64,000 nucleotides of DNA from Stereum hirsutum FP-91666 SS1 (Eukaryota > Basidiomycota > Agaricomycetes > Russulales > Stereaceae): NCBI RefSeq assembly GCF_000264905.1, contig NW_006763141.1, positions 490,600-554,599 of the forward strand, given 5' to 3'. The notes below the pieces were generated by a model. That model had not been told where the DNA came from, did no database searches, and was given only the letters and a program-made list of their open reading frames with translations. Numbering within the stretch: the first letter of the stretch is position 1; each line of letters begins with the position of its first letter. Of the stretch, positions 3,914-43,654 are shown in pieces. The translations under genes and the position numbers were made by a program.

Positions 3914-5952
3914 GCGGCATTGTACCTGCATACTTCTTTGTCAATAGATAGCTAAAACAGCGAATGGATATCACTGCTCACCGTGCCATCAAAGTCGCGG
4001 TAGATTCCGTCCACTCGCGCTCCGGGTCCCAAAGGTCGATGTCGGTATGAGTGCATTGATCGTCGGGAAGGTCGCAATCAACGGGATGCATGCACGCGGG
4101 GTAGTAAGTCGGTATTCCGAATAAATGACGACCTAGCTGTCCACAGAAGCGACGGCATCCACAGCATCCGGTAGCACCGACGAATCCTAAAAGCTTCTCC
4201 ATCGCGGTGGTATCTGCAGTCGCAAATGCGAAGAAGGGCCGATCCACGACGACCCTCTCCTGAAGCGCATCCCAGACCTTCAATCCCTCTTTCATCAACC
4301 CGATAACATGATGAAGCCCAGGAAACAGAAAGGAGTCGAGATGTTCCGGTGCGTTGGGGCCAGGGAATATTCCACCGGGATATACGTAGGTCTTCTTGAA
4401 GCGAAAGTCGGGGGAGTAATTTACGAACATCCAGAGATATATCCAGGTATCGGATTTCTTATGACGGTAGAGCTGTGCGCCATCGATGGAGAATTGGAGA
4501 ATGGTATCATTCTTCCCGATGACGCCGTCACGTACCGCCTCGAGAAGACCGCGGCTCTGGAGAACATCCTTGAAGATGTCGATGTCGGATATGTCACGGT
4601 TAGCGGCCTCGAGTTCGGCAAGGAGGGACTTCATGTCGTCGTAAGCATATGCGAACTTTTCTGCGCCTTCACGAGAGCTGCGTGCGGCTTGGATCTGGAA
4701 ACCGACAGGAAGTGTATAGAAATACTTTTGGGCGACTTTGCCTCCCGACTTCTCGAAGATGATGGGGTCGTAGCGGGGTTCGGAACACGTTGGGCATCTG
4801 GTGAGGTCCGCGTATGGTCCGGTGTACGCTATGTGCGAGTTTGGACACATGTCTGATTTGATTGGAACCAGACCGGTCATGTCTCCGAGGCGCTTTTTGA
4901 CCTGCGCAAAGGAGAGCATGTCTTGCTCCGGATGTGTTCGAAGGTAGGTATCGTGGAGTTTGGAATATGTTTTATTGGACGCGTTCAGGCAGTCGATGAA
5001 GGCGCTGATGGACCAGTCGAGACAGGGGTCTGCGGAGAGATCGATTTGCTCAGTGCGGGGGTTTTGAAGACGGTATATGGCATCGTCATCTAAAGCGCTA
5101 TTCTGAAGTGTGGCGTTCTGCAGCGCCTGCTGAAACTCGAGTGTAGTCTGAATGCTAGGGATCCTAGAGAAGAGAGGGGGGTTTCCGGGAGGTTGTTCCC
5201 CTACCTCGGGTGGCACAGGTTGTCGGGGTATTGGATCTGGATCAGGATCAGGATCGGGAGGAATGTCGTCACCTGGGCCACCTGGTGGTGGTTCAGGTTC
5301 TCTCTAAATACGAAAATACAAGCCTGTGTAAGCACCAAGTCTACATCAACTGTGTGTGAAAGAATATACCGGAGAACCAGTAGCGCTTCGCGTCGGCGAT
5401 CTAACCGGGATTTCTTCGTCATCATCATCCCAACCGGCAAAATCATTACCGGCAGGCTCCTGTAAGAATATATCGTGAGCGAACTTCGTCTAGATACATC
5501 ACAGCACAACTAAAAGTATGCCTACAATGTATCTGTCGTGTTCCTGAACAGCCCCTTGCTGTGCCTACAACAGGATGTACATGAAGTTGTCAATGTCATT
5601 TCGGATTAAGAAGACGATATCCACATACCTGAACTTCTCCGGGAAGTCTATCACCTTCGCCTGCATGACCTTGAATAAATTGTGGCGCATGGGGAACGTC
5701 AGGTGCAGCTGATTTTCGCCAACACATCGTTAATTTCAGAGACGTGATGCTGCCAGAGTGGGCATCTATACACGTACCTACCGCAGCTGTACCACGGAAG
5801 ACTGCGTGCGCTCTCCATGTCTTCTCCGACACCTGTCTGGGGACTCCACCACATCGTTGGTGGCAATCACAATGAAAAGAACGATTGTCAGTTCGAGCTT
5901 TTTTCTGAGGACGTTTGTCGATGTCGGCAATGGTCTCTTCTTGGTCGGACAT
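3912..5952 (-). pseudogene. Tnp2-type (CACTA-like) transposase, N-terminal half
   Basis: This is the 5' part of the broken transposase. A first exon starts at 5952 and encodes a Cys/His cluster (CDCHQRC, then RQVSEKTWRAHA) seen at the start of basidiomycete Tnp2 proteins. An acidic exon (5459-5370, with AGNDFAGWDDDEE) follows, then the main exon 5303-3982, which carries a four-Cys zinc-binding pattern (CPNSH, then CPTCSEPRY) and the long central transposase region. A 56-bp intron (3926-3981) leads to a 14-base stub that runs into the inserted element. Joining of the first exons is uncertain: donors at two places near 5790 both keep a frame open. Residue matches and frame continuity with 934-2432 show that the two halves were one gene. 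Confidence 0.75.
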
Positions 5953-8303: not shown

Positions 8304-8429
8304 ATGGACTCCTTCGTCAACACTGTCGCCTCTATCCCCGCTGCTCCCTCGGAGTCCCAGCCCACTACTTCGCACCCCGTCGAATCCGAATCCGGTGGGG
8401 GCAACTCAACTTACTGTGTCATTGCTTAA
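8304..8429 (+). CDS. Candidate CaaX-type mating pheromone precursor
   Basis: This 41-residue frame begins MDSF and ends CVIA followed by TAA. The last four residues form a CaaX box (Cys, two aliphatics, small residue), the signal for farnesylation, removal of the last three residues and carboxymethylation. Basidiomycete mating pheromones are made from precursors of this size that often start Met-Asp and carry no signal peptide, as here. The mature peptide would be roughly the last 8-14 residues before the Cys; acidic-serine pairs (ESES) just before GGGNSTYC are plausible cut sites, though the exact site is inference. A longer frame runs in from 8169, but the TATA box at 8186 makes 8304 the sensible start. 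No STE3-type receptor lies within the window, so it may be an orphan pheromone-like gene. Confidence 0.72.
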   Translation: MDSFVNTVASIPAAPSESQPTTSHPVESESGGGNSTYCVIA

Positions 8430-9356: not shown

Positions 9357-11961
9357 TTAATCCGAGTCGAATACTTCGGTGGCCATGATCAATTTCTCGG
9401 CAGTAAGCGAGCGAGGCTTGACGTTGCACTTGAAAGGGAGAGGATACCTGTACCTCGCGTATCGCGATACAAACTCAGCTTCAGTACAACGTAACTCAGA
9501 GAATGTGAATGAGAGGGAACGCACGCAACGATCCCCGACATATGATCGTCCACAGGCTCGATCTCCTTACCCTGATCATCCACTGCCTTCTCGATCTTCA
9601 GTGTAGCCAAAATTGATGCCACAGCCAGCCAAACAGATTCACGAGCCATGAAGCGTCCTGGACAGATGCGCCGTCCGAAACCGAAGACTGCCTCGGGTTC
9701 AGGGAGGTCCGGATTATTCAGGTAGCGGTCTGGGTTAAAATCGTTGGCATCGGGCCCGTAGACGGACTCGTCGTGTAGAATCGCCCTGTGAGTGTGTCGA
9801 GTTAGACTTGATATCGCGAAGACCAATATGATAAAGGCTAAAACCATGTACGGACCAGATATTCCCGATCACGGTGCTACCTTTTGGGATAAAGTAGTCT
9901 CCAAACACATCGTCCTCCGTTAGCTTATGAGGAAATCCTGTAGATATTCCAGTCAGTGTCGTTATGTGAAAATGCAAACATCGATCAGGACTACCTAATG
10001 GACCAACAATACGCCATCTAAAGCAGTAACATGTTACATCTGAGTCTGATTTCTTCGAGAATATATCGCGAACCGCTTACCTCCACACCTCCTCCGTCAA
10101 AGCCTTGACATACGGGAGCGTGTCTATATCCGAGAACTCAGGTAACCGGTCGTTTCCAATGACGGAGTCTATTTCAGCTTGTGCTTTCCTCTGAGCTTCG
10201 GGGCAGAGGGCCATGGCGAGGAAGAAGTTCTCGAGAGCGCAAACAGTCTGAATAGATTATCTGTGAGACCCACGGACATCATTACGAAGAGCGAGTGCGT
10301 ACCGTATCGGCACCACCTGAATGCCGAGTCGCGACAGCGTGCGGTTAGTCACCTCATTGGACGAGCGCACGTTGCAGCTCAAAGACGGCAGACGTACCAA
10401 TATACCTACCGGGGTAACATAGTCAGTTGAGGGCAAAACTCAGAAAAAGTCGGGCGAGCTCACATATTAGCCGTAAGCCCCTTCGCCACACCTTCATCCT
10501 CGGGCAATGATTTCTTACTCTCGAGCTGAGTGATCAAAGTCGCAGCGACCGAAGGAGAGGCAGTCCCACTCGCCTATATGATACCACGAGGACATCCCGC
10601 ATCGTGGATGAGCTCCTCGATCCGTGGTAAAGCCGAGAAGCGATGAATAGCTCACCAAGGAATCCTTCGTCGCTTCAAAAGGATGGTTGAGCATATCCTT
10701 ACTCCAATGGCATAATTCGCTTGCTTTCTTCTTATACTGTTTGACAAATGTGATCAGTACCGATGTATCGATTCGAAGCGAAGTGCTTACACCAACGCCC
10801 GGAAACCAAGAGGGTAACTTGAGCACTACATCAACAAGAGACGTCAGCTTTCTGTATGTACGCTGATAATCGTATTTTCCCAGAGGAAGGCACATACGCG
10901 CAGGGAATAAATCAAAAATCTGCGCCTCTATGGACGCAATGGTAGTGACGGCTTCCAGCCCACCTTCTGCGGTCTCGATGAAAGGGTCGTGCTGCGGTTT
11001 GACTTTGATTCCATACGCGATGTCGAGGATGATTGCGCCAGCCATGCTTCATGTACCCGTACAACTGAGCATATTTTCCCTGAAGGACATGAGATAATGG
11101 TGCTCACTGGCGAAGATGCTCCTTGAAATCAGCTGGCTTGTGAACGAGATGGCGTAAGAGCTGATGAGTAGCTGTGCATTCGATGGGTCGGTAGTCCTGA
11201 TCCGGATCAAGGGTTTGAAACTCGAGGCAAATAAAGCAAGTCGAAACACCTGCCTACCTTGACAGCGGACGGTTGGAAGAAGGCGTGAAACGCTTTTCGT
11301 GCAGCTTTCAGACGATCACCATATGGGAACGTGGCTACGACCCAGTTAAAACCGAGGCTATTGGTAGGGAGAGATCAGCTATCGTCAACTCCATTCCCGT
11401 AGCTTAATACGCACAGAACGGAGAACGAGGGAATAAAAGGCCTTTGTCGAAGGATATTATTAAATCAGAGATGCCCGAGGATCAAAGGATGCAGCAATGA
11501 TACGATACCTGTCCGAATAGATGGCTGATCGCTTGACGAAAATCTCGTTGGCGGCTTTTGCAGAGTTCACCACAACTATATGGCTACCCAGAACGTCACA
11601 GTGGACGAGCTCGCTACCTAAACATAGCAGCATTATCAGTAATTACTCAACTAACGAAGCAATGCCGAGATGACCTGTTTCTTTCGCCCCTATGAGAATA
11701 AATTATTCGTTGAATAAACTCGAATGTTGAAAGATTAGGCGGTGACTCACATTTCTCGTATACCAGCCATTCGTGATCCTTTGGCATCTGAAGAAGGTTC
11801 CCGATAATTGGAAGTCGAGGAGGCCCAGGTGGTAGTTGCTTTCCAGCGTACTTCGCATTCCGTCTACGCCAGATGTACAACCCAGCGAGAACGCTGAGTG
11901 AAAAGAGAGAAGCTGTGAAGCTCGTATGAAGGTGATCGTTAAGAATGGACAAAGGAGCCAT
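9357..11961 (-). CDS. Cytochrome P450 monooxygenase 1
   Basis: A multi-exon P450, probably microsomal. The chosen start (11961) gives MAPLSILNDHLH followed by one membrane anchor (about residues 14-30), a basic stop-transfer stretch and the proline hinge LPPGPPRLPIIGNLL. The I-helix oxygen-binding motif GGADT is near 10300-10320 and the haem-binding loop FGFGRRICPGR at about 9653-9685. The last exon, after an intron with donor GTGCGT, encodes PFKCNVKPRSL and stops at 9357. The class resembles mushroom P450s often named O-methylsterigmatocystin-oxidoreductase-like, but the substrate cannot be told. It shares exon pattern and sequence with the P450s at 39803 and 43655, and lacks the intron they carry inside the haem loop. 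It lies 2.7 kb from the peptide precursor genes, so a role in tailoring those peptides is possible but unproven. Inner exon borders were not all resolved. Confidence 0.85.
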
Positions 11962-14049
11962 AGTGACCGAGTTAGGAGGCCGGACAGTGTGCTCGAAGGA
12001 TGGCAACTTCGTGTTGACCGTTATCCGTCCCGTTTTTATTGCGTTTCGGCATCTCCTGTGCACCCCAAAACGAGATTATCAAGCGCTCGCACTTGATACG
12101 AACAATAACATGGCACCCGCCGAGCATCTCCTGTACAGGTGGAGTAACCCTCAGATGTCGGAAGTGTGACTTTACTGAACTGGGATCAGCGACGAAGCGG
12201 AAGCGAACGTAGCGTAGAAGAAGCCGGACACGACGTGAGCACATTGTTATTGTTGTTGAAGACAGAATATTCACCATAAGGCTGAGCATCGCACTAACCA
12301 GAGCTTCTCGACTTCAGGCAGACGTCGGCTAGGATAACTGGAGTCTTCTATGCATGGATAACCATCTCACGCGTGCAACGGAATGCAAAGATTTCGGTCG
12401 TTGTTTCTCATCGCGAAGAGCACCTGAGAAAGCCTAGTTTGGAAGAAGGTCGGCAGAGTTGTGGTGAAGGCAAATGGCACTGTTGCCTCGTGGACAGTTC
12501 CGTTCCCCGAGCGCTCTTGTTGTCTCGTGACGTCATCATCATTGTCCAAGCGCATTTTGTCCGCGCAAGAGCAATGCGAGTAGCCATAGGTGGCCACCAT
12601 TGTCTTCCCCCTCTCTGTCTCACTATGCTCCAACGATCGCAGGTCAAAAACGCTAGAGGAAACTTTTGAGGGTGCTGCCAGAGGAGGGGGTACGAATGTC
12701 CGAGGTGTAGACGTCAAAAGTTCTCCGACCCGTCTCGATGATCTCGATGCGACAGATGAGAAGCTCAACCTCGAAACCCAAGCTCACACGGGAAAATTTC
12801 ACAACTTTCTCCATGGAGTTGCCCGGTGTGGTCAGACGGGAACAGAGAATGATAAACACGAGCTATATCTCGTCCACATCCCGTCGTCAAGCCCAACCAA
12901 TGAAATTGCAAGACGCAGATGAATTAACAAAGTTTCGCGCTCACAATACACTGGGAGTCCTGAAAGGCTTCGCCAATGGTGAGAAAGTCTTCCACCATCC
13001 TTCTCGTTGATATTCTCCGAAATCGATGTCTGACCACCATGCCGCAGCTGCGCAGAACACTTAAAATCGAGGCTGAACTCCTCGAACGAAGCCATTGGCG
13101 GGCAGCCAAAGGTCGGGGTATGCGACGTGAGACTGGGGAGGTTTTGGTCATGATAACTGCAATTAAACCGCTTTTGGTACGAGCGAAAACATCAAAGAAA
13201 TGAGGACGAAAGGGAGCAAACATGTGTTCTGCCGCACGCTCTACAACGCCACCGCCAACAGCTGTCGTTTGAGGTACCCACCACAATGGAATCAACGACG
13301 CCAGGATTTCAGGCAGATGGAGATGAAGTACTTACTCACATGTGCCCTAAGTTTATATTTTGTCAGAGCATGAAAGCAGGGTGTTTCGCAGTGTGAACAG
13401 GTGGCACCGTCTTCGACTCGAGGCTAGGCAGGTCTAGGTGGAACCAAGAGCTTGAGTCTGAGATTATCAGGAAATGAATAGCAGTGGACGTATCTGTCGT
13501 ATGAGACGTCCGCAGCGTGAGAGTGGTGTTCATGATCAGCGTGTAGTCGCAACGAGATGGAGAAGGTAAAGCTCACAGGACACATTGCTCCTTGGCCTCT
13601 TCGCCAGTGCGTCAATCTATCGCGACATGAGAACTCAAATTTGGCAGATCAGGAGGCAGTTCAGCACTAGGTATGTCAACAGTCATAAACCGCAGATTGC
13701 TTTGCGTATTAGGAAGAATAAAAAGCGTGTTCCACGGGCGTCCGGAGGTTGAAGGCTAGCGACTGGAGTTTCAATGGTATGTATTCTTCGAGAGAATGGA
13801 GGCTAAATTTCACGTCGTAGCAATCGCCCAGGATACAGTTGGGATGTGGCTCTGTGAGAGTGTGTACAGGACGAACGAGATCTAGAATTTCGAAAGAGTA
13901 AGTAAGGACGAACGGAGGCCGGCCGCTCAGAGAGCATGCCGTGAGAAATTACATCACGGCAAGCTCCGACCCTAGAAAGCGACTGACTAGACTTGAACAG
14001 GCCCAAGGTTGCAACTAAACTGCACTCGTGGGCGGCAACCCTTCGATAT
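11962..14049. other. Unassigned 2.1 kb region upstream of P450-1
   Basis: Several frames of 60-138 codons occur on both strands but none has a recognisable family, and none links to another by clean splice signals. Some minus-strand segments around 12900-13600 contain donor-like sequences and could be a decayed gene. The P450-1 promoter should lie at the left end of this stretch. Confidence 0.35.
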
Positions 14050-14547
14050 CGCTGTTTCTATGCTTTCTCTCTTAGATGACGGTCCGTGCTGGTAGTCTGC
14101 TTTTTACGGAAAGTGAAGACGGCATATTTTGTTCTGGAGTCAGAGAACAACAAATCGGACTACTTCCTTGCAGCTTTAGCTTCGCACCCCACGTTCATGG
14201 GGTTTTTTGTAGAACTTCGCTTGGAAATGCCGTGAGTAGAGCAAGTGAGACCTGCAACACTTTCCTGCCTTGTGAGTGGAAGGTCGTTCGCCGTTTCGTG
14301 CGCCTAGCCAATGGTTAACGCCTCAGTTTCTGTGCACTATCCCTCGAAGGACTTTGGGGCTCTATATTCCTCAACCGTGAAAGGTAACTGCGCCGATCCT
14401 TTCCGCGACTGCTCTATCGAAACCATACTAGGCATATCTCGCTCTACGACAATGCTCATGCTCATATTCCAACCACGCAGCCGACCACAGAGTAATGTCC
14501 CTTCCTCATATTTCTTATCAAAACATGCATCAATTTAATGTTCACGT

Positions 14548-14559
14548 TGACCCAGGTCA
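14548..14559. promoter_or_regulatory. Inverted repeat TGACC-CA-GGTCA upstream of precursor A
   Basis: A perfect inverted repeat with a 2-bp spacer lies 54 bp before the TATA box of precursor gene A. The duplicate promoter of gene B lacks this segment. It could be a transcription-factor site unique to gene A; binding is not demonstrated. Confidence 0.3.
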
Positions 14560-14612
14560 CGTCAAAATGCACGAAAGCGGACAAGCTCCAATCACCAGAC
14601 TCGACACATTTT

Positions 14613-14618
14613 TATAAG
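14613..14618 (+). promoter_or_regulatory. TATA box of precursor gene A
   Basis: TATAAG lies exactly 80 bp before the ATG at 14693, the same distance as in gene B. The sequence after the box (GCAGCTTGCACG) is also shared with gene B. Confidence 0.6.
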
Positions 14619-14692
14619 GCCCGCAGCTTGCACGGCGTACACCCTCATCCCAACTTTCATCGCAGAGCTCAGACGCAGTCCACAAATTGAGC

Positions 14693-15098
14693 ATGAACTT
14701 CAACATCATTCTCGCTCTTGCCACCATCATTGCCTGCGCAGAAGCACGTCCCATTAATAACTGTCCATGTAAGTTGTAGATTGGCTCCATACGCTCACCC
14801 ACCGTTACAATAACACTCAATACTTACTACTGGATACATATACAGCGAACGTTGGTGCAAGAGACAGCTATGATCTCGCAAAGCGTGAGCTATATTCAGA
14901 TTTCCAGTTTTACGAGAAATGCTATCTCACGATTTTACCCATGAATCTCTAGGTGGGGGTTGCTTTGTGAGTACCTTTTACTTGCGTCCACCGTTATTTG
15001 AACTCATTAGTAGCGACCTTGGAACGGAATGATACACAATCGTGGTACAGGGACAGTACGGCGCGGCTGAAGCATGGGACGAAGCCGATGACCCCTGA
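14693..15098 (+). CDS. Small secreted Kex2-type peptide precursor A (candidate RiPP precursor)
   Basis: Four exons (14693-14768, 14846-14884, 14953-14966, 15051-15098) give 58 residues. Residues 1-19 form a signal peptide (NIILALATIIACAEA). A short leader (RPINNCP onwards) ends in the dibasic site Lys-Arg, a Kex2 cutting signal in the Golgi. The core after it reads GGCF then GQYGAAEAWDEADDP: one Cys, one Tyr, one Trp and an acidic end. The third exon is only 14 bp and starts inside the Arg codon of the dibasic site, exactly as in genes B and C, which supports the splicing. With a UstYa-type gene 6 kb away, a dikaritin-like role for the core is the best guess. The product is unknown. A plain secreted signalling peptide is the alternative. 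Confidence 0.75.
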
Positions 15099-15401
15099 AG
15101 AGTCGTCACTTTGCGTGAGCTCCTTCGAATCAGCATTCACTATCAAGAATGCACTGACATGCTAGCTCGATATAGAGCTAAACAGTCTCTTACCACCGAT
15201 TCGGATTCATTTAGTTCTCGATTGTTCGGTATGCTCGTAGTGGGCGATGTTCTTCACGAATTTAATCAAACGAAGCCAATGAGAGCCTCTTTTGCCTCGC
15301 TCTGTAATGGTTCGAGTGCAACGCTCTGACCGTTTCTTCAACATGGTCAAGTAGGTCTTGTCTTTGTGATGCTTCTTCGACATGAGCAGAAGGTCACCCG
15401 C

Positions 15402-15804
15402 CAAGTACTTATACAAACAAGCGTAAGTAGAAGTTTTATCAGAGTCGAACGTTGTATGGATTGACTTACAGTGCATAACTATTTCTGCTCAACTCAGCCG
15501 TCTATGAGATCCTTCTGACTGTTCTGCCAGCCCTTGTACAGGAAGCCTATCATACAGAGAATGCTGCCGACAGGCTCCTCAGACGCCGAAAAAGTCTCTC
15601 GCATTCCTGCGTACCGTGGGTACTATCGACCACCGGCATATCTACTTCTCCGTCCAGCGTCAAACGAAATGGCTTGACACACCTCTTAACTTGGAGTACG
15701 AGCAAGTAAAGCCTTGTACAGCTTTCATCGGTAACTCCGGCCTGACGGGGTGGGCTGGATAAGTCGAGCTCCAGGCTCGTAACCGGCGAGCGTTCGATGC
15801 CTCT
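15402..15804. other. Spacer between the two duplicated units
   Basis: No gene is supported. This spacer has no clear match after unit 2. Short frames occur but none resembles a known family. Confidence 0.35.
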
Positions 15805-16366
15805 GTTCTTATGTATTCTCTCTTGGATGCTCTGATAGTCTGCTGCTTCCTATGGTGTCGGGCTTCCTCAACGCATCATGGAAAGTGAAAATGGTATTGT
15901 TCGGCCTGGAGGCCATCATGACGTGAGAAGCGCCACAAAACAACAAACCGGACTACTCCGTTGCAGCTTTAACTCCGCACCTCATTTCATGAAGCTTTCG
16001 CAGAGTTTCGCTCCGTAATGCGATGAGTGGAACAAGTGACACTTGTGCGACCATCCTGCCTTGTAAGTGGAAAATCGTCCACCGTTTCGTGCGCCTTGCC
16101 AATGAGGCTGGGGAACGCCTCAGTTTCTGTTTAATATACCTCGAATGAATTTGGGGCTCTACAATCCTCAACAATGAACGGTAAGTGTATTGATCCTTTC
16201 CGTAACAGCTCCAACGAGGCCCTCTCAGGCATATCTCGCTCTATGTCCATATTCATCCTCTGATCACGTTGTCGACCACAAAGTCAGGTCCCTTCCTCAT
16301 CTATCTCAGATTCTAGTTGTCCCGGGGTACACGAAAGCGGACGGGTTGCGAGGCTCGAGATATGCT

Positions 16367-16372
16367 TATAAA
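16367..16372 (+). promoter_or_regulatory. TATA box of precursor gene B
   Basis: TATAAA lies 80 bp before the ATG at 16447, the same spacing as in gene A, with the shared downstream segment GCGGCTTGCACGAC. Confidence 0.6.
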
Positions 16373-16446
16373 GCGTGCGGCTTGCACGACCACACCCTTT
16401 ACCCAAACTTCTACCTCAGAGCACGGACGCACTCCACAAGCTGAAC

Positions 16447-17029
16447 ATGATCTTCAACATCATTCTCGCTCTTGCTACCATTATTGCCGGTGCCCAAGCA
16501 CGTCCCATTGATAACTGCGAGGGTAAGTTATAAATGAGCTCCATACGCTCACCAACTCTACAATACTACTCAATGCTTACTACTATATATGTCTATGCAG
16601 GTAACGTTGACACGAGAGCCAACTACGATCTTACAAGGCGTAAGTGTAAGATAGGACATTCTTACTCCGCAGAGATGCTGAATTTTGTCTGAAACCAACA
16701 ATACAGGTATCGGCGGGAGTGGAGTGAGCCACTTTATGAAGCCTCAGGAAAGGATCTGAACTTACTGACAAATTTGGCAGGCATCGTACTTCATTGCCAG
16801 TCCTGACACTGACAAGAACCCTGAGAAGCGTAAGTGACTCTCAGATTTCTAAAGTGTTACAAGGAACGATATCTCACGATTTTATTCAGGCGGAAGCTGC
16901 AATGTAAGTACCATTTTATGTGCCCACCGTTATTATGCTCGTCCATGACATATACTGAAAGTACACACTACTGTGATACAGGGCCTTTACACTTTTGCCG
17001 ATGCAGAGACCGCAGCCGATGAAGTCTGA
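16447..17029 (+). CDS. Small secreted Kex2-type peptide precursor B with two core units
   Basis: Six exons (16447-16522, 16601-16639, 16707-16723, 16781-16829, 16890-16903, 16982-17029) give 80 residues. The signal peptide (NIILALATIIAGAQA) is nearly that of gene A. After a short leader, a dibasic Arg-Arg opens unit 1 (IGGSG, then ASYFIASPDTDKNPE), and a Lys-Arg opens unit 2 (GSCN, then GLYTFADAETAADEV). Each unit is one microexon plus one longer exon, each begins inside the Arg codon, and each has Tyr as the third residue of its longer exon. Compared with gene A, one exon pair has been gained, or lost in A. Two different cores from one precursor is a known feature of multi-core ribosomal peptides. 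Function is inferred from this layout and from the UstYa neighbour. Confidence 0.75.
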
Positions 17030-17333
17030 AGAGTCGTCACTTTTAGTGAGCTCCTTTATATCAACATTCATCGAGTTTGCACTGACATGATAGCCCGATG
17101 CAGAGCGTAATGAAAGGCCCTTGCTACGGATTCAGACTCTTCCAGTTTTCGATTTCTCGGTATGCTTGTAGTGCACGATGGTCCTAACGAATAGAACCAA
17201 ACGAGGCCATTGAGAGCCTATTTTCCTTGCTCTGTAATGATTCGAGTGCATGGCTCTGGTTGTTTCTGAGGTATCGTAGAGTGGGTGTTGCCCTTGTGAT
17301 TCTTCTTCAGCATGAGCAGAAGGCCATCCGCCG

Positions 17334-18064
17334 TGCTGTGTACTCGCTATCGGGTGATTGGGACACGGGATTCGTGGCACTGTTCTTGGAGGGCATCCAG
17401 TACACGTCTCTAGAAGGCGATTGCTGCGACCCTGGAGGCCCTTCAAACCGTCGCTCTGGCCAGAGTACACTCTCTACAGTAATTCCTGTGGGATTGAATC
17501 CTAACCAGAAATTGGGCTCAGAGTTTTTGAGCGCATCTGAAGTCTCAAGGAAACCCTTTGACTTTTGTGAGGTGCTGCAAACAATATTAGGTCCGTTTCT
17601 TCGACATGTCCGTCATTGCTTCTTGAGCGACAAACTGTGTCAATACGCACCTGATTTCTGGGGCGTCCGACCGTCTCGGAACATTACAACTGGTGCGCCC
17701 AATTTTTGTATGGTGCAGGGCTCTCGAGAGTCATCATCACATGAAGGTTACATGACGGGAGCATCAAATAGGGCCTGTGGTTCTTTGCATCTTTGACTTT
17801 ACGTCTCATATCAACTAAGTCCAAAAATATCCCTCAGAAAGATCCGTTACTGGAGAAAATGGTGACGAGAGTATCTCCAACCGCGCCGAGTATCCCCATT
17901 CCTTAGGTTTTCTGTGTTCTGATGAATGGTATGTGGGATCCAGGGTACTCAGCTGCTAAAGCGACCGTTCGTTCTGTACTGCGTGGTGAGCCATAACCTC
18001 TGCATCTTTTAGCGCCTTTACTTTCGAGCCCGAGCTTACTCTAGTACAAAGGACTCAGAGCTGG
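17334..18064. other. Intergenic DNA between precursors B and C
   Basis: A 189-codon open frame (17227-17796) crosses this stretch but lacks a signal peptide, domain or splice pattern and starts inside the duplicated flank. It is treated as chance. The last part is the promoter of gene C. Confidence 0.35.
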
Positions 18065-18072
18065 TATATAAG
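18065..18072 (+). promoter_or_regulatory. TATA box of precursor gene C
   Basis: TATATAAG lies 107 bp before the ATG at 18172. The wider promoter does not match those of genes A and B, in keeping with a more distant relation. Confidence 0.55.
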
Positions 18073-18171
18073 GCTGGGTCGTTCTTGATGGGTAACTGTG
18101 GTTCGCGTTATCACTAGCCTGACCCAACATTCCAACAACATCCCACCTGTACTCTCCTACCCAACTCAGTC

Positions 18172-18471
18172 ATGAACTACAAGATCATCCTCGCTTTTGC
18201 CGCTGTCATCTGCACTGGTGTTCAGTCCAGCCCCACTGGCACCAATGACATTGTGGCGAGGGACAGTCTTCCGAAACGTAAGTAATCTCTATACGCTAAA
18301 TATATTTGCACAAGGGAGACTTCGAAACTAACCACAAGGCCGTTCTGGGTACCTTAGGCGAATTAGAGGTGATTTTTCTTCGGACGGTCGTGGTGATACG
18401 GAAGGCTTACTTCACATCGCTTTGCACAACAGTATTACCTAGTCCATGATGTCGACGAGGCTGAGGACTGA
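18172..18471 (+). CDS. Small secreted Kex2-type peptide precursor C (candidate RiPP precursor)
   Basis: Three exons (18172-18277, 18358-18368, 18433-18471) give 51 residues. A signal peptide (KIILAFAAVICTGVQS) is followed by a short leader ending in Lys-Arg. The core reads ELE then YYLVHDVDEAED, again a Tyr near the start of the longer exon and an acidic end. The 11-bp microexon starts inside the Arg codon and ends on a codon border, as do the 14-bp microexons of genes A and B, which decides between two possible acceptors (the TTAG at 18357 rather than the AAG at 18340). Here the leader is in one exon rather than two. It lies outside the tandem duplication, so it is an older relative. It ends 515 bp from the convergent membrane-protein gene. 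Confidence 0.7.
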
Positions 18472-18985
18472 GCACATATTTCTGAGCGTTATGCTGCGTG
18501 AGTTTCTCCGTTTCAGAGGTACTGCAGTCCAGAACTGACTCGCTAGAGTTTTTTTCAGTGTCGGAAGAATTACTTGCGTGATTACTATGGCTCGAGCCGT
18601 CCTCCGATTGTGTTGGCCGCGATGTATTTTGTGTTGATCCGAGGTGCTCAGAATGTATGATTACTACAGCGGAGGTTTATAGTGTTCTTAGTGGTGTCTT
18701 TTGTCCCGTAAAATGATAACATCCCGACTGGTTCAGTGGCACGTCGACGAAGGTGTGGTACCTGAAAGAAATCACGACTTCTTGTCGGACAGTAAACGAG
18801 CTCAACAGCCTTTCTAACCGTCTCAAAGGTTTCACGCGAGCCATTATTTGAGCAACTTGTAAATGTGACTGCATGAATGGTAATCGTTACTGTACACCTA
18901 TGCCCTTGTACTATTTGTTCAAACGTACTACACCAGTCGTCACTGCAAATACCAATGCCTTTCAAGGCGAACCGAATCCTGCTAA
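18472..18985. other. Convergent intergenic region
   Basis: This lies between the stops of precursor C and the membrane-protein gene, so it should hold both 3' untranslated ends. A 138-codon minus-strand frame (18648-19064) overlaps the last exon of the membrane-protein gene in another frame and has no support of its own. Confidence 0.4.
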
Positions 18986-19957
18986 TCATCGAAGTTCTTG
19001 CATGTCGAACGCTAAGACATATTGGACTCAATTTCTCCGTAATACTTAGGTAGGAAGACGACACTCACATAGAGGTGGCTCTGAGAATATTTGCAGAAAC
19101 TCAAGCCTACATCCGCTTTTTCTTATGGCTTCCTCCGAGCACGCCACTTCGATCACCGTATTCCGCCTCCCGCCACACTCCAACCTTGGTGTCGGTACCC
19201 TCAGCTGCCATCCAATATCCGCCTCCTTCACATATTCTGCGCTGAAATTCACAGTTCCCATCAAGTTGAGGCGCGAAGGGCGAGTATCATAGGTGAGATT
19301 CTTGGGGAGGGGGGAAGTGACGTTCCATATCTCTAGAGCAGAAACGTCCCCGACGGCAACGAAGGACTTGTTATTGGACGCGAGGGCGGAAGCGTCCGAA
19401 ACAACGGCTTCGATATAACAGAGAGCGGATGGTGAGAGTCGGGTTGACCAGCGGAAGAATGTGGAGTCCTATTTGCGAAGACGTCAACCAAGAAAAAACT
19501 ACGTGAAGTGGCGCAGAGGAGAAAGCTTGCCGTCGCACTGAGGAGGACTTTACTCCCGGGATTAAAGACTTTGTCCTGTTCAGATGAGCTCACATGGACG
19601 ATCGTGTTGGGGAACCACATTTTGGGGCCTGCAGGAATGATATAAGCTAAGGCTGTGATGAATGAAACAGCAAGAGGAAGTACCCTTTGACCTCCACCGC
19701 TGGATGCCTCCCACTGTCTCCATGTTGGGGTATGGCGTTAGTCTCCTGAGACCAGATGGGCTCAGCGGGACACTGAGTGCCGATGAGAGCGAGTAAACAG
19801 CGATGGCAGACGCCACTGTCACAAATGAGGTCAACGCGACGCAAGCCCACAAAATAAACGGGTATCGTCCTTCTTCAGTGGGTATGCGTTCTTTCCACTC
19901 CTCTGGAGAAAGGAGAGGAACGTAGTCCTCAGAAACAGGACGGTCAGGACGGGTCAT
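18986..19957 (-). CDS. Single-pass membrane protein with an extracytoplasmic domain, function unknown
   Basis: The start at 19957 gives MTRPDRPVSEDYVPLL, a short cytoplasmic tail, then one hydrophobic segment (YPFILWACVALTSFVTVASA, about residues 28-52) and a long outer domain with N-glycosylation sites such as NVT and NLT. Exons inferred from splice signals carry WFPNTIVHVSSSEQDKVF, then a large exon (from about 19468) with ALEIWNVTSPLPKNLTY and four Cys residues, and an 8-codon last exon ending at 18986. The layout resembles a family of unannotated type II membrane proteins common in Agaricomycetes; I know no function for them. The gene diverges from the UstYa-type gene across a 0.9 kb spacer, which allows shared control. 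One internal donor near 19690 is unresolved. Confidence 0.65.
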
Positions 19958-20851
19958 CCTCTGCAGAAGGCAAAGGGACAAAGATCAAAAGTGTTGGGGG
20001 CGGGGATAGCAACAAGAACAGGTGTTTGGAGCTGAAGACCCTGAATCGCACACGCCATGCCGTAGTCTAGAATGAGATCATAGTCGGGTCGCGGGTGAAG
20101 TCGTGCCACGGTTTGAGCCTGTGGTTATCGATATTAGGCTGAATACAACCATAGCAAGGTAGGCGCGAGACTCTTCAAGACGAACAGAGTTTTCAGTATG
20201 ACGAGAAGACACGCACATGTTTTGACAGTATGACAATACAGCCCCAAGACTGTCCGAGTATATCGGAGGGTACTGATAGGTCGTGCGGATATGTTAGTTG
20301 GATAGTCGTCTGGCGCCAGGACTCGGAGCGTAGTGTCGCGGCGCGTGATGATGAAAATGTGAAGCAAGAAGCTTAGAGGAGGTAAGAAGGGGCATTTCTA
20401 CTGCTCCCTCGAGATCTCTTACGATATGACATGTTTTTCTGAGATGATACCGTGAGCATGCTTGATATGGCCTGAACTGGCCGCCGTTGTGTAGTTCGAG
20501 CAAGTACTAGTGTAACTCGAAGAATCGGACGCCACCGCAAGAATTAGGGCGGCTTATCGGAGGATGCCGAAATAGCCGTGGACATCAATTCCCTCGAGCA
20601 CCCTCCTTTCCTCCTTCTTACATTCTTGCACGTTCCATCACTTACCTAGCTCAGACAGCGGCCCAGATAGATGTCTAAAATAAGCGGTTCGTTGCTTACA
20701 GGGTATCTTTGCTCCAACGTACGCCTACCGTGCTCCTAGCTCTGCGAAACTGTGCTTCGATAGCACCTCGTATCCTTTGCAGACCCTGCGCACGATATTT
20801 TCTCTACGATCACCAAGGACGTACGGAGACTCAATCTATTGCACTATTGAC
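19958..20851. promoter_or_regulatory. Divergent spacer between the membrane-protein and UstYa-type genes
   Basis: The two genes are transcribed away from each other across about 0.9 kb with no recognised gene inside, so both promoters must lie here. No TATA box as strong as those of the precursor genes was seen, and the CACGAAAGCGGAC box of precursors A and B was not found. Confidence 0.4.
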
Positions 20852-21721
20852 ATGTCTTTCCTACGGAGAGCGAATACGGGTTTTCTCTGCGTGCTTCTTG
20901 CTCTCGTTGTCAGCATGAGTGTTAACCTCCTCACCGTCCGAAACATGGCCCTGAAGACATCTAACGACCCGGGACGTTATAGTACGCTACACTAATTTGC
21001 GTGCTCTCTATGACGTGGGGCCTGACATAGACCTCCAGGTTACAGCGGCGACGACTATCCGATCCAGCTCCCTCTGTACCTTCCCACAGTTTCTCTGGTC
21101 TATGAGAATACCGAGCGATTCGGTGTCTCAGATCTCAGTTCGTGGTCTGACTGGCGTTCGACCGATGCATTCCCCAAGGGAAACGGGTTTGTGAAGCTCG
21201 GGCCTCAAGGTAATTTATTCTCCATTTTTCGAAGCTCTTCACTGATTGCCACTTCTCTGCCCGTTCAGCTCGTTTGTTTGGTCTCAGCATGTTTCATCAA
21301 CTTCACTGCCTGCAGATGATACGCCATGCTATTCTCGCAGGCGACGCTGAAGACCATGTCCAACATTGTCTCAATATGATTCGGCAGGTACGCATTGAAA
21401 TATGGATGTACTCTGACGCTTGCGTAGTGAGCATATATTTGCGTTGTCTGTCCTAGGCAATTCTGTGTGCCGCGGACACGACACTGGATCCATTAGATGT
21501 TTCGAATGATGACGGCGCGCCCATAGCCGCAGATGGAGTTGGGCAGACGCACATGTGCCGTGATTGGGACATGGTATACCAGTTTGTGAACGACAATCAG
21601 CTGAGCGAGGCGTGGAACGTAAGCAAAGATGCAACGTAAGTAGTGCTGGACTCCTACAGAATACAATTGATATCACGGATTCAAGTTTCCGAGCTCATCG
21701 GTGTCTAGGTGTGACGACTAG
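20852..21721 (+). CDS. UstYa/DUF3328-family protein (putative peptide-modifying oxidase)
   Basis: Five exons (20852-20981, 21039-21209, 21269-21387, 21457-21635, 21709-21721) give 203 residues. One membrane anchor lies near the N-terminus (about residues 9-27, TGFLCVLLALVVSMSVNLL). The defining pair of HxxHC motifs is intact: MFHQLHCLQMIR and DHVQHCLNMIRQ, followed by AILCAADTTLDP and THMCRDWDMVYQFVND, all in the usual order. UstYa-family proteins act in the secretory pathway of ascomycetes and are linked to oxidative cyclisation of Kex2-released peptides (ustiloxin-type dikaritins), among other modifications. Here the gene lies 2.4 kb past a family of secreted Kex2-type precursors, so those are its likely substrates. 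No stop or frameshift was seen. Length is at the short end for the family. Confidence 0.85.
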
Positions 21722-42287: not shown

Positions 42288-43654
42288 AATGGTTGCGATT
42301 AATATGGGTAATAATGGAGGGAGAGGATGCACTGGCACTGGCAGTTGGCTGATTTATACCCGTGGAATATGCTAGAACTCACTGCAAGCCCAAGGATAAT
42401 TACGACAGCATCACTGGATGACACAGTGTAACATTGTCGGAGCCTAACGCCACTATCATTTGGCCCCACCGCGGTGTTTTCTGCACCTGTTATGGAACTG
42501 ACAATATCCTCTCGTCGTGGTTTACGACGTCGGAAAACTCGGATCGAGTAAGTTCAATCTGTGTGGTCGAGCGTTGTTTTGAGCTGGAATTGTTTCGGAG
42601 AGTCACAAGTCCGACTCTCGTCGGATACTGTGAAATACATGTGAAATCATCCATGGGGTCATGAAGAACAAAATGTGATACACACCATTGCAAACAGTGT
42701 TTTCCAAACAAGCTTGAAGCGATTCGAGGCTCCTGCGTGGAGCGCGAAGGATATAACCTTGAATAACCCCGACTGGCGGTCTGAAGCAAACTAGTTATGC
42801 GCCCATCTCGCCACACCGTCAATAGCGGACATGAGTCTGTACCGCAACGTTGGTAGTTTCGCCGAGTTATTATGACGCTGCAATTATATTGAGAAGGAGC
42901 TCAGTGTATGCGCCCGAGCCGGTCCGGGTCACTCGCGCTGGAAACACACGTTGTCCCCTTGAAAGAAAGGTGCTCCTTATCGTGAGGGTGCTTTACATTC
43001 GACACATATTCTCGGGATTTCGGCCTGGAGGCCTAGCAATATATCCCAAAAAGTCATAAACAGACTTCAGTACTAAGTACTGAGGTTGGAAGGGATCTGC
43101 CGGGGGAGTTGGACTCACCAAAAGTAGAGATATCTGACGAGACCTCTAGTGATACGGGCGGTCGAGTTTAAACAGGTTCAGGAAAAGCACCTTAAGCCGG
43201 GTAGGTTTCCATGCCCGCCAACCGTTTTTGGCATCATTGAGCACCGAGTCACTTGCAAGCAGCGATACAACGACAGTCTGAATGTTCTGAAGCAGCCTAC
43301 ACGTATTCCTTGAAAGTATTGATTTACTGCATAGTAATTTCACGTGTTGAACAGTGAAAAGAGATTGAAGCCTACTGCTGAGGTGGTGGTTCAATATTCA
43401 ATGATGACCGGTTAACTTGGTGGCGTTTTGGTGGCGTTGCTCCCGGGCTACTCCGGCTCCGGCAATGTCCCGACTGTCTCCGATAAGGAGGTGCCACGGT
43501 GGCACATTCAAATTGTATTTCTGCAGTTGTGTCGCAGAATTCGATATCGTACATTCAGCTCGTTCGATGGTCTTTTTATTGTTTCTCGTCGCCATACGCT
43601 CATATAATATACCTAATCATTTCTCCAAAAGGGGACTTAGGTATATCATCAGGT
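42288..43654. other. Spacer between P450-2 and P450-3
   Basis: Only short frames without family features. It contains a perfect 17-bp palindrome, TCAGTACTAAGTACTGA, at 43067-43083. The left part should be the P450-2 promoter. Confidence 0.4.
43067..43083. promoter_or_regulatory. Perfect 17-bp palindrome
   Basis: TCAGTACT and its exact complement flank a single central A. It could be a dimeric regulator site or chance; it lies 780 bp upstream of the P450-2 start and 570 bp beyond the P450-3 stop. Confidence 0.3.

Follow-up and report, generated by a model that had tools for sequence, protein, structure and literature searches.

The window analysed here is a stretch of 64,000 nucleotides from the basidiomycete Stereum hirsutum FP-91666 SS1 (contig NW_006763141.1, here C11, positions 490600-554599), whose genome comprises 46 Mb on 38 contigs. 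It contains three short genes for putative secreted peptide precursors (P1, P2 and P3), a gene for a But2-like protein (T) and a UstYa-family (DUF3328) gene (Table 1), which together are read as a probable dikaritin-like ribosomal peptide cluster. The starts of the precursor genes and of the UstYa gene had been placed at 14693, 16447, 18172 and 20852 by an earlier note on this DNA, and all four positions proved to be correct.

Table 1. Features of the peptide cluster and of its surroundings, in window positions
Feature	Position	Strand	Description
P1 precursor	14693..15098	+	4 exons (14693-14768, 14846-14884, 14953-14966, 15051-15098); 58 aa; signal peptide, KR, one unit GGCFGQYGAAEAWDEADDP
P1 microexon, 14 nt	14953..14966	+	completes the Arg codon of KR and encodes GGCF; from phase 1 into phase 0
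P2 precursor	16447..17029	+	6 exons (16447-16522, 16601-16639, 16707-16723, 16781-16829, 16890-16903, 16982-17029); 80 aa; signal peptide, RR-IGGSGASYFIASPDTDKNPE-KR-GSCNGLYTFADAETAADEV
P2 extra unit compared with P1	16707..16829	+	exon pair of 17+49 nt, symmetric phase 1-1, Y-F-I core inside
P3 precursor	18172..18471	+	3 exons (18172-18277, 18358-18368, 18433-18471); 51 aa; signal peptide, KR, unit ELEYYLVHDVDEAED; final splice junction uncertain
T, But2-like, predicted membrane protein	19046..19957	-	exons 19957-19684, 19628-19531, 19468-19046; second intron GC-AG; between P3 and UstYa
UstYa-family gene	20852..21639	+	4 exons (20852-20981, 21039-21209, 21269-21387, 21457-21639); 200 aa; HQLHC and HVQHC
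Cytochrome P450 gene region	9392..12075	-	piece 9392-9868 matches PF00067; two other pieces without match
CaaX pheromone-precursor-like open reading frame	8304..8429	+	41 aa, ends CVIA; PF08015 E 0.013, below cut-off; context, outside the cluster

Splicing yields MNFNIILALATIIACAEARPINNCPSNVGARDSYDLAKR-GGCFGQYGAAEAWDEADDP for P1, MIFNIILALATIIAGAQARPIDNCEGNVDTRANYDLTRR-IGGSGASYFIASPDTDKNPEKR-GSCNGLYTFADAETAADEV for P2 and MNYKIILAFAAVICTGVQSSPTGTNDIVARDSLPKR-ELEYYLVHDVDEAED for P3, in each case with an unbroken frame and with GT-AG borders at all ten introns. A signal-like hydrophobic start was detected in the three proteins by a simple home-made heuristic based on a hydrophobic core and a cleavage site. 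The Kex2-type dibasic sites, which are predicted cuts, are Lys-Arg (KR) in P1 and P3 and Arg-Arg (RR) plus KR in P2, and all four are split by introns. The C-terminal unit of each precursor is bounded by the stop codon. P1 and P3 hold one unit and P2 holds two; all four units differ and each carries Tyr as modelled, that of P3 hanging on a weak splice. The signal peptide, dibasic site and Tyr unit claimed earlier for the three genes are therefore borne out by the spliced models, with the same reservation for P3, and the "several different cores" correspond to these four units. The 14-nt length and the phase of the P1 microexon recur in exon 5 of P2 and in exons 3 and 8 of a precursor on contig C12, which is described below. 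No Pfam match was obtained for P1, P2 or P3 at E-values up to 0.1. A fourth precursor at 15419, where a dibasic donor motif lies in a duplicated downstream stretch, was rejected, as no signal-like start was found there.

Alternative gene structures were enumerated and ranked with splice weights derived from 17 introns outside P1-P3, 11 of which belong to the C12 and C4 precursor models made in the same analysis, so that the ranking is partly circular. Furthermore, the splice score summed over all exon numbers favours structures with more introns. The P1 model ranks first of 18 structures and the P2 model second of 194, the top-scorer for P2 changing only the last acceptor at the cost of the last Tyr core. 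For P3, the model ranks 36 of 73 overall and 2 of 23 among three-exon structures; in its 12 best structures, KR is kept in seven and KR-ELE in six. The P3 core is the weakest part of the gene models.

P1 aligns with a 681-base P2 query at 77% DNA identity across the first 265 bases of the query and at 68% across its final 216, and further blocks of 77-82% identity are found in the flanks. Their common exons are equal in length (76, 39, 14 and 48 nt), to which P2 adds exons of 17 and 49 nt. Judged from this identity, P1 and P2 are tandem paralogues. In the leader (first 39 codons), 10.8 of 27 synonymous and 14.2 of 90 nonsynonymous sites differ (proportions pS 0.40 and pN 0.16), compared with 6.2 of 12.5 and 17.8 of 44.5 in the cores (pS 0.49, pN 0.40). 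By these small numbers, the leader is constrained and the core freer, as expected of precursors. A genome search with the P2 leader returned P1 only, and the P3 leader had no other match in the genome. Of the three precursors that had been called related, P1 and P2 are thus duplicates by DNA identity, whereas P3 is related by layout alone, from which we infer its kinship.

The UstYa gene had been described as intact and as carrying both HxxHC motifs, which was confirmed: its product matches PF11807 with 72.3 bits (cut-off 25) at residues 100-187 and contains HQLHC and HVQHC. No solved structure matched the protein at E-values up to 1. The gene is located 2.4 kb from the end of P3 and 5.8 kb from the end of P1, inside the 15-gene limit applied to Kex2-processed precursors (KEPs) with a DUF3328 neighbour. 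A genome search with PF11807 resulted in 30 exon matches, which were grouped as at least 19 UstYa places including the window. In a ranking by tblastn and blastp, the closest paralogue was found at C12, with 56% identity over 202 aligned positions and exon lengths of 130/171/128/183 compared with 130/171/119/183 in the window. The C4 gene is second by identity and by summed exon scores (54-66% over 58 to 78 residues of the second exon, 42-43% in the later part), its two exon matches adding up to 187 bits.

The T protein has a single hydrophobic segment at its N-terminus; the domain behind it shows weak similarity to But2 (PF09792, E 1.6e-4, 22.5 bits, below the cut-off of 24.2), and we infer a type-II topology for T. 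A search of the genome with the T protein, in which only the best candidates were scored, returned nine exon matches (E up to 1) at three places only, namely the window, C12 and C4, and T adjoins the UstYa gene at all of them. In the compared parts, identity to the T protein of the window is 64% at C12 and 43% at C4. Open reading frames (ORFs) of at least 50 residues at C12 and C4 were also searched against the 116 kb surrounding the window, where matches were obtained for UstYa and T alone, apart from one of 21 residues at window position 42677 (E 0.002) that was set aside; the precursors are too short and too diverged to match in this comparison. T probably belongs to the maturation machinery as its third component, in the role of a partner, chaperone or sorting factor.

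Precursors could also be identified beside the UstYa genes of C12, C4 and C21. The C12 precursor, located 1.3 kb from the UstYa gene, consists of 10 exons and 169 residues with six AIGASVYYMSEEEEAKR-type units. It opens with a 67-nt signal exon, a 42-nt exon ending in a split Lys-Arg and a 14-nt microexon (AIGA), followed by the Tyr exon. These first exons of 67, 42 and 14 nt compare with 76, 39 and 14 nt in P1, and the phases are 1, 1 and 0 in both. The 14-nt microexon occurs twice in the C12 precursor, and introns split two of the six KR sites preceding AIG(A/V). Near this intact six-repeat gene, a second, decayed-looking Kex2 precursor copy with in-frame stops was observed on the minus strand (C12 166895). 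The C4 precursor, 0.8 kb from its UstYa gene, reads APTGPNNYEIGYSDYQGAKR-SPTGPNNYEIGYSDYQGAKR-SPEGPEDYEEPYSD. Its dibasic codon is split at both resolved internal boundaries, two of the repeats carry Tyr-Glu-Ile-Gly, the Y-x-I-G pattern known from ustiloxin cores (PMC7329392), and in the reading made the first intron, at the junction to the signal exon, has no canonical donor in the needed phase. Genome searches with the C12 and C4 repeats returned their own loci only (5/5 and 3/3 matches, respectively). The C21 precursor (577656-578421) has seven exons, with all six introns located between Lys and Arg of Kex2 sites; it comprises five similar units, with Trp units instead of Tyr and one early unit with Tyr. 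The C21 UstYa gene is divergent and resembles those at C18 and C25. At C18 a 49-residue secreted candidate with one KR was noted (455331-455563), and at C25 (23852) a signal-like start with no dibasic site in the reading made.

A signature consisting of a signal-like ATG and a dibasic codon split at the donor was defined post hoc, after P1-P3 had been seen. Scanning 272 kb on both strands resulted in six matches, comprising P1, P2, P3, the C12 precursor, the C4 precursor and one that is chance-like; the C21 precursor, with its introns between Lys and Arg, was missed. In total, clear Kex2 precursors are present at 4 of the 19 UstYa places (window, C12, C4 and C21), with a candidate at one more (C18).

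An exon-by-exon search of the genome for the PF09792 family, which missed T at the window, C12 and C4, revealed three further genes (C17:475637, C20:276187 and C6:841142). The C17 gene is located between two UstYa genes and the C20 gene about 2.9 kb from a UstYa match; for the C6 gene, no UstYa gene was found in the surrounding 9.4 kb. Five of the six But2-like genes therefore lie within about 3 kb of UstYa matches, where 10 kb around the 19 places amount to about 0.4% of the genome; three of them are paralogous sets and thus not independent, and the grouping of T with the other three uses a sub-threshold Pfam score. No Kex2 precursor was found near the C17 and C20 genes, and the link between But2 and UstYa may be wider than these peptides. 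In the open-access literature, with few subscription journals, no paper on such a link was found; the available excerpts of PMC5915685 mention each in different places.

Taken together, the locus is interpreted as a basidiomycete ribosomal peptide cluster of the UstYa/Kex2 (dikaritin-like) type, in a microexon form of one or two units, with an estimated probability of about 0.74, because the set of precursor, UstYa and T recurs, the frames are intact and the HxxHC motifs are present. In the mechanism proposed from the sequence, in which topology, processing, modification and the role of T are predicted, P1-P3 would enter the secretory pathway via their signal peptides, and Kex2 would cut after KR or RR, releasing four peptides of 15-20 residues, of which P2 would supply two and P1 and P3 a single one each; the linear monoisotopic masses calculated for them are 1957.742, 2024.933, 1932.805 and 1837.789 Da. 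The UstYa-family protein would face the lumen, with its anchor at the N-terminus, and would oxidise or cross-link these peptides, most likely at Tyr, and T would perhaps assist it in maturation. As modelled, the units correspond to phase-matched exons flanked by introns inside the dibasic site and, for this reason, could be gained, lost or exchanged in frame.

The dikaritins of ascomycetes (ustiloxin, phomopsin and asperipin-2a) are alike in having an endoplasmic reticulum signal peptide, Kex2-released Tyr cores and a nearby UstYa/DUF3328 protein with two HxxHC motifs. In contrast to these, whose precursors have many nearly identical repeats, each gene of the window set holds one or two units, and the set is further distinguished by microexons, several precursor genes with different cores, a single UstYa gene, a But2-like gene and the absence of a tyrosinase nearby. 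The proposal that it is a mushroom counterpart of the precursor/UstYa pair is supported, as the pairing recurs at C12, C4 and C21 of the same genome. UstYa and T connect the window set with both C12 and C4, and the exon plan connects it with C12 as well.

Several observations weigh against this interpretation. The pattern of ustiloxin and phomopsin cores is Y-x-I-x (PMC7329392; papers are cited here by accession), and Tyr-x-Ile, as Tyr-Phe-Ile, is present in one of the four window units; the full pattern fits this unit and two C4 repeats, but not the other three window units or the C12 units. The Tyr tail of P3 (YYLVHD), for which a weak donor is needed, is contained in none of its 12 best-scoring structures. 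None of the ten tyrosinase (PF00264) matches is located on the contig of the window or within 100 kb of a UstYa place, and the window has a single UstYa gene, unlike ustiloxin. Tyrosinase is not regarded here as a defining trait of the class, since that role is assigned to the DUF3328/UstYa protein with its two HxxHC motifs (PMC12048977). The single best UstYa matches at C6 and at C1:567 kb (122 and 114 bits) exceed that of C4 (103 bits), and no precursor was found there in the 9.3 and 11.3 kb examined. The chance-like sixth signature match is located at C6:496926, where a precursor was rejected for want of a coherent reading frame. Finally, at 14 of the 19 UstYa places, where 3.2 to 15.5 kb each were examined, no Kex2 precursor was found, and a UstYa gene alone therefore does not predict a precursor. 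These negatives are weak, because about 5 kb or less was examined at 6 of the 14 places and because absence was judged by eye from scans for signal-like starts, repeats and the signature, short of full gene prediction. The microexon layout that the earlier note proposed to look for beside DUF3328 genes recurs in this genome at C12, with the 14-nt microexon.

The best surviving alternative, though an unlikely one, is that P1-P3 give rise to linear secreted signal or effector peptides cut by Kex2, while UstYa acts elsewhere or on one precursor only. The acidic tails of the units and the Cys in two of them fit this view, and to our knowledge neither is typical of ustiloxin cores. The 14 UstYa places without a visible precursor agree with it, as does the fact that all but 103 of 1680 basidiomycete KEPs have no DUF3328 gene within 15 genes (PMC7329392). 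With an unrelated enzyme, however, the pairing at C12, C4 and C21, the microexon plan of C12 and the presence of T at C12 and C4 are hard to explain. It is considerably less probable that P1-P3 are decaying relics of a former multi-repeat precursor beside UstYa: one or two units are left, the cores diverge nearly freely and a decayed-looking copy exists at C12, but the frames, splice sites and dibasic sites are intact as modelled, the leader of P1 and P2 is constrained and P2 contains a whole extra in-phase unit.

The pairing of UstYa and Kex2 precursors in basidiomycetes is not a first, since the 103 KEPs mentioned above were already reported in silico as paired with DUF3328 in Basidiomycota; among KEPs with a DUF3328 neighbour, Tyr is more frequent in the repeats (65.6% compared with 38.2%; PMC7329392). 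The precursors at C12, C4 and C21 look of that kind. In that survey (Umemura 2020; PMC7329392), at least three tandem repeats of at least eight residues in annotated proteins were required. P1, P2 and P3 fail this rule with 1, 2 and 1 units, so that the survey could not list them, whereas the C12 precursor has six repeats. For Pleurotus ostreatus, 16 UstYa-like genes "probably involved in dikaritin production" were described (PMC8893723), which belong to the same family and are similar in number to the at least 19 places found here; in the excerpts of that paper, no precursor beside them is described. Four features were not encountered in the open-access literature, outside of which most subscription journals lie: microexon precursors of one or two units that are linked to a classic repeat precursor by exon plan and by UstYa paralogy; unit boundaries formed by introns in dibasic sites; the But2-like third gene; and the mating-type setting.

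Among the other genes of the window, the cytochrome P450 is a possible tailoring enzyme. It was rejected as a proven member (9.4-12.1 kb), since no C12 or C4 reading frame matches it, and its membership is doubtful; a weakly transporter-like gene at 32-33 kb (PF00083 below cut-off) was likewise rejected, being not common to the C12 and C4 ORFs. A frame on the minus strand (3981-5303) has weak similarity to a tnp2 transposase (PF02992, E 3.7e-4, below cut-off), and the long frame beside it (1340-2434) had no Pfam match. Between 22.8 and 28.7 kb, very long overlapping low-complexity frames were observed, which are Ser/Thr/Ala-rich on the plus strand and Glu/Pro/Ala-rich on the minus strand.

The cluster is situated 6.3 kb from the CaaX pheromone-like ORF of Table 1. 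In the genome, 23 STE3-family exon matches were grouped into 7 places, all on the contig of the window, and five of these flank the window on either side, between C11 462.6 and 574.7 kb. A second CaaX pheromone-like ORF, ending in CIVM, was observed at C11:464384. A CaaX scan detected two ORFs in the STE3 stretch and two in 126 kb elsewhere, so that the count is not enriched; the two in the STE3 stretch are set apart by an MD start and weak Pfam similarity. In a genome search with PF08015, C11:464384 (E 0.396) and C13:1379117 (E 1.6) were the two matches, both sub-threshold, and the ORF at window 8304 was absent from the results. The cluster is probably located in or near a pheromone/receptor mating-type region, and this position alone proves nothing about a mating role. 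P1-P3 differ from the CaaX lipopeptide pheromones of basidiomycetes, with which they share the genomic region, by their signal peptides, Kex2 sites and lack of a CaaX end, and a CaaX reading of P1-P3 was rejected. That they are alpha-factor-like mating peptides is hardly to be expected: their location between STE3 genes near a CaaX pheromone-like ORF, the existence of Kex2-cut alpha-pheromone-like precursors in basidiomycetes (PMC6339444) and the DUF3328 neighbours of 17 of 76 alpha-pheromone-like KEPs (PMC7329392) speak for it, but no STE2 match was found in the genome (the control search was silent too), the STE13 dipeptides XA/XP are absent after the dibasic sites of P1-P3 (units start with GG, IG, GS and EL; two C4 units start with SP), and among the KEPs with an annotation as ascomycete alpha pheromone or yeast mating factor, only three have a DUF3328 gene nearby (PMC7329392).

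The interpretation as a dikaritin-like cluster bears on the 2020 survey, according to which the cyclisation of peptides processed by Kex2 "might hardly occur in Basidiomycota" (PMC7329392). The present data suggest that its count may be too low for Basidiomycota, because exons serve as units, introns interrupt the dibasic sites, and single-unit genes with 14-nt microexons lie beside a close relative of a UstYa gene that accompanies a classic repeat precursor. An intron-interrupted dibasic site near UstYa is gained as a search rule, the But2-like protein is a new candidate partner, and the gene set is precise and testable. It is a long shot that the mating-type region holds a second and chemically different secreted-peptide system, UstYa-modified and with fast-changing cores, microexon precursors and a dedicated three-gene set including the new But2-like component, which would be inherited jointly with the STE3 receptors and lipopeptide pheromones and would serve as a signal in mating or self-recognition. 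Some cyclic KEP products were proposed by Umemura to serve sexual development under mating-type control (PMC7329392), and the position of the locus makes this proposal testable in a basidiomycete.

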